Both the position numbers and the translations under genes were made by a program. From Balneolaceae bacterium (GTDB taxonomy: Bacteria > Bacteroidota > Rhodothermia > Balneolales > Balneolaceae): a stretch of DNA of 64,000 bases. Positions 38,810 to 41,489 of this stretch are shown here, piece after piece. How positions within the stretch are numbered: position 1 is the stretch's first letter; every line of letters begins with the position of its first letter. The notes beneath the pieces were generated by a model that searched no databases, was not told the DNA's origin, and saw nothing but the letters and a program-made list of their open reading frames with translations. The stretch is from positions 186,001 through 250,000 of the forward strand of contig JAEPQH010000001.1 of NCBI GenBank assembly GCA_017640605.1. Direction: 5' to 3'.

Positions 38810-39310
38810 ATGGCACATCCCGCACACGAAGACACTATTGAGCTTGTAAAAGAAATATTCAGGTCGTACCTCAAAGAAGGTAATCAACGGCAAACCCCTG
38901 AGCGCTTTATGGTTTTGGAGGAGATCTATCGTGCGGATGGCCATTTTGATGCGGATGATATTTTCTTTCGCATGCAGGATGGAGGCACTCGTGTTAGCCG
39001 CGCAACCGTGTACAACACGCTCGATCTTTTAGTTGAATGCGGACTTGTACAACGCCAGCAATTTGGTAAAAGCCAATACTACTACGAACGAGCGTACGCT
39101 TACCAACAGCACGATCATATTATTTGTAACGAATGCGGACATGTACTGGAGTTTTGCGACCCGCGTATTGGTGAAATTCAGGATTTAATCGGAAAAATTC
39201 ACGGAATGGAAATCGAATCTCATTCGCTCCACTTTTATGGAAGGTGCCGGGATATTGAAACTTGTGAACACCGCAAAGCAAATAGCGGAAAGAAGGATTT
39301 GGTTAAATAA
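38810..39310 (+). CDS. Fur-family metal-responsive regulator
   Basis: A 166-residue Fur-family regulator. The winged-helix segment RQTPERFMVLEEIYRADGHFDADDIFFRM precedes VSRATVYNTLDLLVECGLV near residue 65. The metal/dimerisation segment HDHIICNECGHVLEF holds the first CxxC, and the C-terminal CRDIETC the second pair, so a structural zinc site is likely. It could be Fur, PerR or Zur; the spacing does not settle this by eye. It precedes the repeat array and is divergent from the acyl-CoA synthetase gene. Confidence 0.92.
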   Translation: MAHPAHEDTIELVKEIFRSYLKEGNQRQTPERFMVLEEIYRADGHFDADDIFFRMQDGGTRVSRATVYNTLDLLVECGLVQRQQFGKSQYYYERAYAYQQHDHIICNECGHVLEFCDPRIGEIQDLIGKIHGMEIESHSLHFYGRCRDIETCEHRKANSGKKDLVK

Positions 39311-39323
39311 GGAGAAAGGAATC

Positions 39324-39344
39324 AGGAGTAAGGAGTAAGGAGTC
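39324..39344. repeat. Heptamer tandem repeat (AGGAGTA)n
   Basis: Three copies of AGGAGTA, the last ending in C, 14 bp after the Fur-type gene stop. The complement of this tract (CCTTACTCC, CTCCTGATTCC) appears in the spacers and right edge of the array at 39516-40610, so the array is framed by opposite-strand copies of a related sequence. Confidence 0.75.
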
Positions 39345-39515
39345 AAGGGAAAACTCATATTATTAACCACGGACGCACAAAATCTTGGAATAGATTTTTC
39401 AATGTGCAGTGTTCAACAAGCAATTTTCAGTGAACATACGGAGCTCACTTTCGGTAATTATGCACCTAAATTATTGCCTTTTTTCTCAAGCCTGTACTTC
39501 TTATCGTTTTTGACT

Positions 39516-39670
39516 CACCAAGGCTGAAGCCTTTGCTTGCTTATGATCGAGGTTAGATAAAAAAATCAATCGCAAATTGAAATGAAGTTAAAACAGTTTT
39601 GATTTCAGATTGTGAATCCACCAAGATCATAAACAAGCAGGGAGTTCACTCCCGGATATCGAGCTCCCGA
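39516..39670. repeat. Structured repeat unit 1
   Basis: Left arm CTTGCTTATGATC, right arm GATCATAAACAAG (one C/A mismatch, G-U if read from the minus strand). The internal hairpin is TCAAT/ATTGA and the second is TGA-TT-TCA. Confidence 0.85.
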
Positions 39671-39744
39671 GTTTTGCCTTGACCAAACACTCCCTTCTCT
39701 TGATTCCTTACTCCTTTTTCCTACCCTACTTACCGTTTTTGACT

Positions 39745-39898
39745 CACCAAGGCTGAAGCCTTTACTTGTTTATGACCGTGGTTAGATGAAAAAATTCAAT
39801 CGTATATTGAATCAAAAACAAACCGAACTAATTTCGGATTCTGAATCCACCAAAATCATAAACAAGCAGGGAGTTCACTCCCGAATATCGAGCTCCCG
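39745..39898. repeat. Structured repeat unit 2
   Basis: The arms CTTGTTTATGA/TCATAAACAAG pair perfectly. The internal hairpin is ATTCAAT-CGTAT-ATTGAAT, and the second hairpin is CCGAA/TTCGG, different from units 1, 4 and 5 on both sides of the stem. An additional GTGG/CCAC pair is possible. Confidence 0.85.
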
Positions 39899-39959
39899 AA
39901 TTGATTCCTTTCTCCTGTTTCCTTAATCCTTTCTCCTGCCCTACTTACCGTTCTTGAAC

Positions 39960-40117
39960 CACCAAGGCTGAAGCCTGTACTTGTTTATGACCTTCGTTGG
40001 ATAAAAACATTTAAATCACACATTGATTTAAAAATAAAACAGTTCCGATTTCGGATCGTGAATCCACTAAGATCATAAACAAGCAGGGAGTTCACTCCCG
40101 GATATTAAGCTTCCTAA
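39960..40117. repeat. Structured repeat unit 3
   Basis: The most divergent unit. The internal hairpin is TTTAAATCA-CACAT-TGATTTAAA, with both arms changed relative to the other units yet perfectly paired; the second hairpin is CCGA-TT-TCGG. A TGGAT/ATCCA pair closes the inner region. The outer arms pair as in unit 2. Confidence 0.85.
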
Positions 40118-40177
40118 TTATTGCCTTTCCAAAGTACTCCTTTCTCCTGATTCCTGTACTTTTTATCGTTTTTGACT

Positions 40178-40334
40178 CACCAAGGCTGAAGCCTTTACTT
40201 GCTTATGATCGAGGTTAGATAAAAAATTCAATCGCACATTGAATTAAAGTTAAAACAGTTCTGATTTCAGATTGTGAATCCACCAAAATCATAAACAAGC
40301 AGGGAGTTCACTCCCGGATATCGGGCTCTCGAAT
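40178..40334. repeat. Structured repeat unit 4
   Basis: The internal hairpin is ATTCAAT-CGCAC-ATTGAAT and the second is CTGA-TT-TCAG. The left arm has the C variant (CTTGCTTATGATC). The end reads GGGCTCTCGAA where the other units have GAGCTCCCGA. Confidence 0.85.
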
Positions 40335-40392
40335 TGATTCCTTTCTCCTGTTTCCTTAATCCTTTCTCCTGCCCTACTTACCGTTCTTGAAC

Positions 40393-40548
40393 CACCAAGG
40401 CTGAAGCCTTTACTTGCTTATGATCGAGGTTAGATAAAAAAATCAATCGCAAATTGAAATAAAGTTAAAACAGTTTTGATTTCAGATTGTGAATCCACCA
40501 AAATCATAAACAAGCAGGAAGTTCACTCCCGGATATCGAGCTCCCGAA
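40393..40548. repeat. Structured repeat unit 5
   Basis: Almost identical to unit 1. The right hairpin is weakened by one change (GGAAG instead of GGGAG). The preceding 60-bp spacer is identical to the one before unit 3. Confidence 0.85.
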
Positions 40549-40604
40549 TTTTGCCTTTCCCAAACACTCCCTTCTCCTGATTCCTTATTCCTTACTCCTT
40601 TTTC

Positions 40605-41489
40605 CTATCCCGAAATATACGTCTCCGCAATAAATTTGCGGGCAGCAAGTCGACTTCCCCACCAGCCCATCAAAACTGAGAGGCCAAACATCGCTCCTGC
40701 CAAGAAATACCATTGCCCGTACGGCCATCCTAGGATTCCCATCTCCGGAAGATACAGAGGGAGAATAAATTCGAAAATCAGGAAAATACAACCCACCGAG
40801 AGTATCCCGGCTACAAATCCCTGCAAAATGCCTTCAACGATAAATGGACTTCGGATAAATTTGTTAGTGGCGCCAACTAGTTTCATCGCTCGGATGAGTT
40901 CACGCTTCGCGTAGATGGTTAATCGGATGGTATTGTACACAAGAATGACTGCGGCAAGCAAAATCAATAATCCCAGACCTGCTCCCATCATGGTAAATAA
41001 ATTCAGATTTGATTCCATCACCCTAAGCAGCCCTTCGTTGTATTTTACTTCATCTACCCCACGCTGATTTAACATTGTAGATACAAAGTTTGAAATTTCA
41101 TCAACACCTGCTTCGGTATCCACCTTTACTTTAAAAGATGCGGGTAAAAAATTTAGAGCGACTAATTCTTCTACGCCGGGGCCAAATTCCTCGCGCATTA
41201 TCGCAGAGGCACTGTCTTTTGATATGTAAGTTACTTCGAGAGCCAGAGGATTTTCGTTAAGAGATTCCTGAATTTGTGCGCGTGTATTTTCATCGATATC
41301 AAACAGAAAAATTTCCACTTCTATAAGTTCTTTGAACGACATCGCCTGCACATACACATTGTAAGCCACTCGCGATAGAATCCCTAAGAGTAGGATTGCG
41401 ATAAATAAAGACAGTATAGAAGTAGTTGCTGCAAGTTTTGCTCGTTTAATTCCGGCAAAGCCTTCTTTGATGATGTATGAAAGATTCAT
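40605..41489 (-). CDS. ftsX: FtsX-type cell-division ABC permease
   Basis: A 294-residue FtsX homologue. A cytosolic N-terminus leads into helix 1 (AATTSILSLFIAILLLGILS). The extracytoplasmic loop (about 45-165) contains FLPASFKVKVDTEAG, and three more helices follow, including ERELIRAMKLVG-type coupling (KRELIRAMKLVGATNKFIRSPF). With FtsE it senses division signals and activates peptidoglycan hydrolases. No ftsE lies nearby. It follows the TonB-receptor-like gene by 3 bp, so it is the last gene of the cinA operon. Confidence 0.92.
   Translation of the reverse strand: MNLSYIIKEGFAGIKRAKLAATTSILSLFIAILLLGILSRVAYNVYVQAMSFKELIEVEIFLFDIDENTRAQIQESLNENPLALEVTYISKDSASAIMREEFGPGVEELVALNFLPASFKVKVDTEAGVDEISNFVSTMLNQRGVDEVKYNEGLLRVMESNLNLFTMMGAGLGLLILLAAVILVYNTIRLTIYAKRELIRAMKLVGATNKFIRSPFIVEGILQGFVAGILSVGCIFLIFEFILPLYLPEMGILGWPYGQWYFLAGAMFGLSVLMGWWGSRLAARKFIAETYISG

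Follow-up and report, generated by a model that had tools for sequence, protein, structure and literature searches.

What are the five tandem repeats that stand between two convergent genes in this Balneolaceae genome, and how could they have arisen? They lie in a stretch of 64,000 nucleotides (the window), and a preliminary description, made from the sequence alone, had proposed either a non-autonomous element of IS200/IS605 or REP type or a family of structured RNAs.

Anatomy of the array between fur and ftsX

The tandem repeats proved to be real, with five units occupying positions 39516-40534 of the window at a period of 215-229 bp. Their setting is also as first described: they are enclosed by a Fur-family regulator gene (fur, 38810-39310, + strand, with orthologues in 12 relatives) and a convergent gene for an FtsX-like protein (ftsX, 40605-41489, - strand, family assigned from sequence). 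No transposase gene is present in the window, matches to Y1 transposases being found on other contigs or 113 kb away.

Each unit consists of two inverted REP palindromes of about 35 nt, with their feet directed inward across a spacer of about 72 nt (39551-39622 in unit 1, and similar in units 2-5). The right hairpin and its 5′ flank read TCATAAACAAGCA-GGGAG-TTCA-CTCCC, and the left hairpin and its flank, in reverse complement, read TCATAAGCAAGTA-AAGGC-TTCA-GCCTT. Both hairpins are objects of the same type, made up of a foot, two bases, a 5-bp stem and a TTCA loop. The long-range pair noted earlier in each unit is therefore two feet that face each other. This pair exists, although units 1, 4 and 5 carry CTTGCTTATGA, which places a mismatch in the long-range stem. 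The flanking hairpins likewise exist, apart from a broken outer pair on the left of unit 3 (AAGGCT/AGCCTG) and one broken pair in the right hairpin of unit 5 (GGAAG/CTCCC).

A covariance model of the 35-nt REP found ten copies in the array, in strictly alternating orientation (-/+) and spaced 107-109 nt apart with a single gap of 122 nt. Two REP types alternate, A (AAGGC-TTCA-GCCTT) and B (GGGAG-TTCA-CTCCC), and a foot of about 11 nt, TCATAARCAAG, is conserved 5′ of each hairpin. The left REPs are of type A and lie on the - strand, at 39516-39550 in unit 1 (foot TCATAAGCAAG, stem AAGGC, loop TTCA; E = 2.5e-10), 39745-39779 in unit 2 (E = 7.5e-10), 39960-39994 in unit 3, where the outer stem pair is broken (E = 2.2e-8), 40178-40212 in unit 4 (E = 9e-10) and 40393-40427 in unit 5 (E = 9e-10). 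The right REPs are of type B and lie on the + strand, at 39623-39657 in unit 1 (foot TCATAAACAAG, stem GGGAG, loop TTCA; E = 1.8e-10), 39852-39886 in unit 2 (E = 3.9e-9), 40069-40103 in unit 3 (E = 1.8e-10), 40285-40319 in unit 4 (E = 4.5e-10) and 40500-40534 in unit 5, where one stem pair is broken (E = 1.5e-8).

The first inter-unit spacer (39656-39746) contains pyrimidine-rich tracts (TTCCTTACTCC...). The spacers between units 2 and 3 (39885-39961) and between units 4 and 5 (40318-40394) are 97% identical, and identity among units 1, 4 and 5 is 95-97%. Local segmental tandem duplication would fit these identities. Pyrimidine/purine tracts such as TCCTTTCTCCTGATTCCTTACTCC were also seen at 39310-39351, 39690-39720, 39900-39940 and 40570-40605 of the window; similar tracts recur between genes throughout the genome and in the relative G001, outside the REP array as well.

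Conservation and dispersal of the REP hairpins

When the units were folded as single-stranded DNA and compared with dinucleotide shuffles, units 1-4 gave z-scores of -4.3, -5.3, -4.7 and -2.9, and the fold of unit 5 was weak (z = -1.6). The preliminary description had placed compensating changes in two internal hairpins of each unit, and these were not borne out. In an alignment of the five units, internal-hairpin covariation was null in both registers tried. One of 12 pairs was changed on both sides, which 409 of 500 shuffles equalled; the register of pairing in unit 3 is not that of units 2 and 4, and in units 1 and 5 the predicted fold lacks the two internal hairpins. The hairpins predicted in the internal spacers thus vary in register from unit to unit, and their helices are not conserved.

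The stems of the REPs behave differently. Among 45 distinct copies from the genome, 95.6% of cells were paired and changes on both sides occurred at all five pairs. Cells changed on both sides numbered 51, compared with 15.4 +/- 3.7 in shuffles, none of 500 shuffles reached 51, and the signal collapsed to far lower values in slid controls. As these 45 copies had been picked partly for pairing, a second selection was made by the foot alone; a TTYA loop was then found in 49 of 87 candidates, and at least four of the five stem pairs were kept in all 49. Paired changes in palindromes can also come from template switching without selection, so the covariation is not by itself proof of function. It seems that only the REP hairpins retain their structure, a pattern that fits recognition as single-stranded DNA.

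The host assembly (G000; 3.74 Mb in 34 contigs) contains about 52 REPs of this family, scattered through varied intergenic contexts, and none of 49 checked lies inside an open reading frame of at least 120 aa. Genome-wide, 15 REP pairs have their feet inward and five have the opposite order; five of the feet-inward pairs stand in tandem and form the array. Shorter doublets with 44-nt spacing, type A on the left and type B on the right, occur on contigs C23 and C31, and further REPs are found singly and in unpaired tandem. Two REPs (C8:69669-69703 and C1:297148-297182) abut a contig end or stand no more than about 150 bases from one; the assembly may be interrupted there by repeats, so that the genome could hold more copies than were counted. 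Another REP subfamily, with the foot CATAACCAAG, has four copies in a tandem of about 198 bp (C21:3736-4365, L066), every copy being on the same strand.

As short extragenic palindromes with dispersed copies, inverted doublets able to fold and compensated stems, these repeats have the properties of REPs, BIMEs and REPINs. They depart from canonical REPs in that no GT[AG]G foot adjoins the hairpin; the foot is CATAARCAAG here and, 5′ of the stem across the class of REPs considered below, TTGTAR. A GT[AG]G foot is lacking from REPs of subclasses 2.6 and 3 as well, so that it defines canonical REPs only.

These results bear on the proposal that the units are structured RNAs (a riboswitch, sRNA or attenuator) kept for their RNA fold, which we consider scarcely credible. 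Their stable predicted folds and intergenic position would suit it. A scan of the window, however, gave no Rfam match, no promoter-like site was found in the array, and the conserved helices expected of such a family are missing, the internal helices being without covariation. The units lie downstream of two convergent genes and their copies are dispersed in varied intergenic contexts, and what is conserved is the REP, also found on both sides of a transposase gene.

A Y1 transposase gene among the REPs

A search of the host genome for an enzyme gene, as had been suggested with the guess of a REP-like element served by a TnpA_REP/RAYT gene elsewhere, was successful, and the guess was right. 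A Y1/HUH transposase gene is located at G000:C10:339074-339499, 113 kb from the array. It has the same palindromes on both sides, the downstream REP overlapping its stop codon, and is therefore arranged as a REPtron, a Y1 gene between copies of one REP. In keeping with a single-copy, vertically kept gene, there is one close orthologue per genome, and the same acs/ald neighbourhood is found in G000 and at the locus L089. Integron attC sites had been considered from the hairpin layout, and were dropped once the REP family and the enzyme were found.

The enzyme has 142 aa and the motifs DHVH, WQ and YIYNQEKHH, in agreement with the subclass 1.2 features listed in Table 1 of PMC6006769 (DH[IV]H, WQ, Y---Q--HH, about 148 aa). 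Subclass 1.2 is described there (Quentin et al. 2018, PMC6006769) as IS200-related, low-copy and generally without IS200-type secondary structures, and the REP column of the same table reads 'no' for it. The NCBIfam IS200 profile scored 63 (cut-off 55), whereas REP_Tyr_transpos, the mark of RAYT class 2, reached 27.8 bits against a cut-off of 80; relatives of the enzyme likewise passed the IS200 cut-off and fell far short of the REP-associated one. Among proteins of solved structure, sequence search alone found IS200-type transposases only. An AlphaFold model of a 71% identical relative (L087, mean pLDDT 86) is nearest to the ISDra2 and IS608 TnpA structures and next to E. coli TnpAREP with bound REP. 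On its motifs and profile scores, the enzyme belongs to Y1 subclass 1.2 (IS200-like), outside the RAYT subclasses known for REPs. The host has two further subclass 1.2-like Y1 genes, at C7:209273 (L064) and C14:153572 (L063), 34-38% identical to the C10 gene. The C7 gene has TTTA/TTCA hairpins of its own upstream, and no hairpins of this type were seen at the C14 gene. With three such genes in the host, a given REP subfamily may be served by any of them.

The affinity to IS200 raises the question of whether the array is a MITE, a non-autonomous element of the IS200/IS605 type with a left and a right end, moved by a genuine IS200 transposase (subclass 1.1). Both the nearest structures of the enzyme, ISDra2 and IS608 TnpA, and the subterminal hairpins with a guide-like foot on their 5′ side would agree with this. 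The ends, however, are inverted copies of one REP and not distinct LE and RE hairpins, and REPs also occur singly and in unpaired tandem. The gene, unlike an IS, is single-copy and keeps its acs/ald neighbourhood, and its signature is Y---Q--HH as opposed to the plain Y---Q of IS200. In place of the repeated copies and LE/RE ends around tnpA expected of an IS, the host has three divergent single-copy Y1 genes and REP flanks. We therefore regard a MITE as very improbable.

The distribution of REPs follows that of the enzyme. In a set of 34 genomes, three or more REPs (52, 48, 24, 9 and 3) were found in exactly those five that have an orthologue of at least 53% identity, both thresholds having been chosen after the data were inspected; in the other 29, no REP was found in 28 and one REP in one. 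The array is missing between fur and ftsX in five relatives (G001, G002, G034, G018 and G023), which indicates a lineage-specific gain, and a search of the array DNA against relatives gave only short matches to REPs or pyrimidine tracts.

Its position between convergent genes could also mean that the array is mainly a bidirectional terminator, or a stabiliser of mRNA 3′ ends, and is kept for that. E. coli REPs are described as able to terminate transcription and stabilise mRNA (PMC6006769), and the array has eight terminator-like sites against 1.3 in shuffles, because a T-rich TGCTTGTTTA follows the hairpin on one strand. Relatives nevertheless manage without an array at this locus, five units exceed what a terminator would need, and the family is linked with a transposase gene. 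This explanation is unlikely; a terminator effect between fur and ftsX could plausibly arise as a by-product.

An intact reading frame for the enzyme is present in the host, G002, G014 and G018. In G001 the orthologue is frameshifted (C22:88115-88538, L172), yet 48 REPs are present, so that REPs remain in that genome with no intact close enzyme. The locus L089, whose flanks are near-identical to those of L172, likewise does not translate in one frame. The broken gene of G001 would suit the idea that the REPs are immobile relics and that the array has grown only by replication slippage or unequal crossing-over, as would the near-identity of three units and two spacers, a mark of segmental duplication. 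The intact frames in four genomes, and the lineage-specific array and copy numbers, speak against it, and we give this idea a small chance.

Very probably, then, the array is a BIME or ordered REPIN cluster whose REPs are likely to have been moved by the C10 Y1 enzyme, the two forming a REPtron, and whose units were multiplied by tandem duplication. In the following steps, binding, cutting and scattering are modelled on IS608/ISDra2 and TnpAREP, as described in PMC6006769 and PMC8266576. Single-stranded DNA, for example the lagging-strand template in replication, would expose the REP hairpins. The enzyme would bind the foot and TTYA loop of the single-stranded REP and would cut and rejoin at the borders of REPs or REPINs and so spread copies to sites between genes; units would then be amplified by local recombination through segmental tandem duplication. 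By the same analogy, binding, cleavage and movement of these REPs are ascribed to the C10 enzyme.

REPs at subclass 1.2 genes in other bacteria

The array itself is of a known kind, a BIME or REPIN cluster; what is unexpected is the subclass of the enzyme. Its sequence was used to find 80 relatives, 74 of which have Y---Q--HH. Within 600 bp of these genes, hairpins with a stem of at least 6 and a TTYA loop (or its complement) occurred at 2.27 per kb, compared with 0.09-0.11 per kb at four control offsets on the same contigs, an enrichment of about 20-fold against controls that were not matched for intergenic content. At least one such hairpin was present at 59 of 80 loci, and about a quarter of the relatives' flanks had none. 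An identical hairpin core was found on both sides of the gene at 38 of 67 loci and in 2 of 276 control placements. The controls were offset placements; clear subclass 1.1 genes were too few in the sample for a negative control. Many of the roughly 100 loci are from Flavobacterium and so not independent. In an independent sample, drawn with the IS200 profile, 10 of 18 loci had a shared hairpin on both sides, some with other loops.

Between the REPs of a locus, the ten bases 5′ of the stem are better conserved than the ten 3′ of it (0.785 against 0.561), in 38 loci versus 5 when oriented by the loop (Wilcoxon p = 1e-6), which indicates that a foot on the 5′ side is a general feature. For the class as a whole the consensus is TTGTAR...GGAY-TTYA-RTCC. 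Six genomes have 3-36 copies of it, compared with 0-2 of the reversed pattern. The copies are mostly paired, as minus/plus at about 70 nt in the flavobacteria and as plus/minus at about 180 nt in the Mucilaginibacter genome. A subclass 1.2-like gene from Saprospiraceae (L097) was seen amid many palindromes of the type ATCCCGTAGGGAT, a different REP type.

The same REPtron layout is thus seen again at subclass 1.2 genes of Bacteroidota and of some further phyla. Judged from their flanks, these genes seem to form a REPtron lineage apart, marked by REPs with a signature of their own, a 5′ foot and a TTYA loop. We think it probable that subclass 1.2 is a second lineage of REPtrons that originated on the IS200 side of the Y1 tree, has a REP type of its own and extends over Bacteroidota, Balneolota and a few further phyla. 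In that case the REP domestication of Y1 transposases would have happened at least twice. In the open-access literature searched, subclass 1.2 genes were not reported as REPtrons. Compared with the subclass as described in PMC6006769, our enzyme agrees in length (142 aa), in DHVH, WQ and Y---Q--HH, in low copy number and in its occurrence in Bacteroidota and relatives, and differs in that REPs flank the gene here and in most relatives examined.

The E. coli BIMEs, with alternating Y and Z REPs, and TnpAREP (YafM) resemble this system in having two extragenic subtypes that alternate in orientation, a REP-flanked enzyme gene and a foot 5′ of the hairpin. They differ in the foot (GTAG, against CATAARCAAG here), in the TTYA loop on a short stem that is found here, and in the enzyme, which is subclass 2.2 (YIHYNP) in E. 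coli and subclass 1.2 (Y---Q--HH) here. The ordered REPIN clusters of P. fluorescens SBW25 (PMC3116915) are likewise tandem near-identical REPINs including their flanks; they lie near RAYT genes and reach four REPINs, whereas the array here has five. The REP sequence and the RAYT group are different, and SBW25 has about 1,400 REPs as opposed to about 52. IS608 and ISDra2 (IS200/IS605) offer the closest solved folds and single-strand hairpin ends with a 5′ guide; unlike them, the gene described here has no IS structure around it and no multiple identical copies, and its repeats are dispersed away from it.

REPs are a main source of dispersed bacterial repeats, and the REP enzymes are the best-known domesticated bacterial transposases. 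REPtrons of subclass 1.2 would give a likely origin for the common GGACTTCAGTCC / GGATTTTAATCC palindromes of flavobacteria and their relatives, and would provide this group of enzymes with a testable substrate. The rules by which a foot and a TTYA loop may be recognised could then be compared with those of GTAG-type REPs and of the IS608 and ISDra2 ends.
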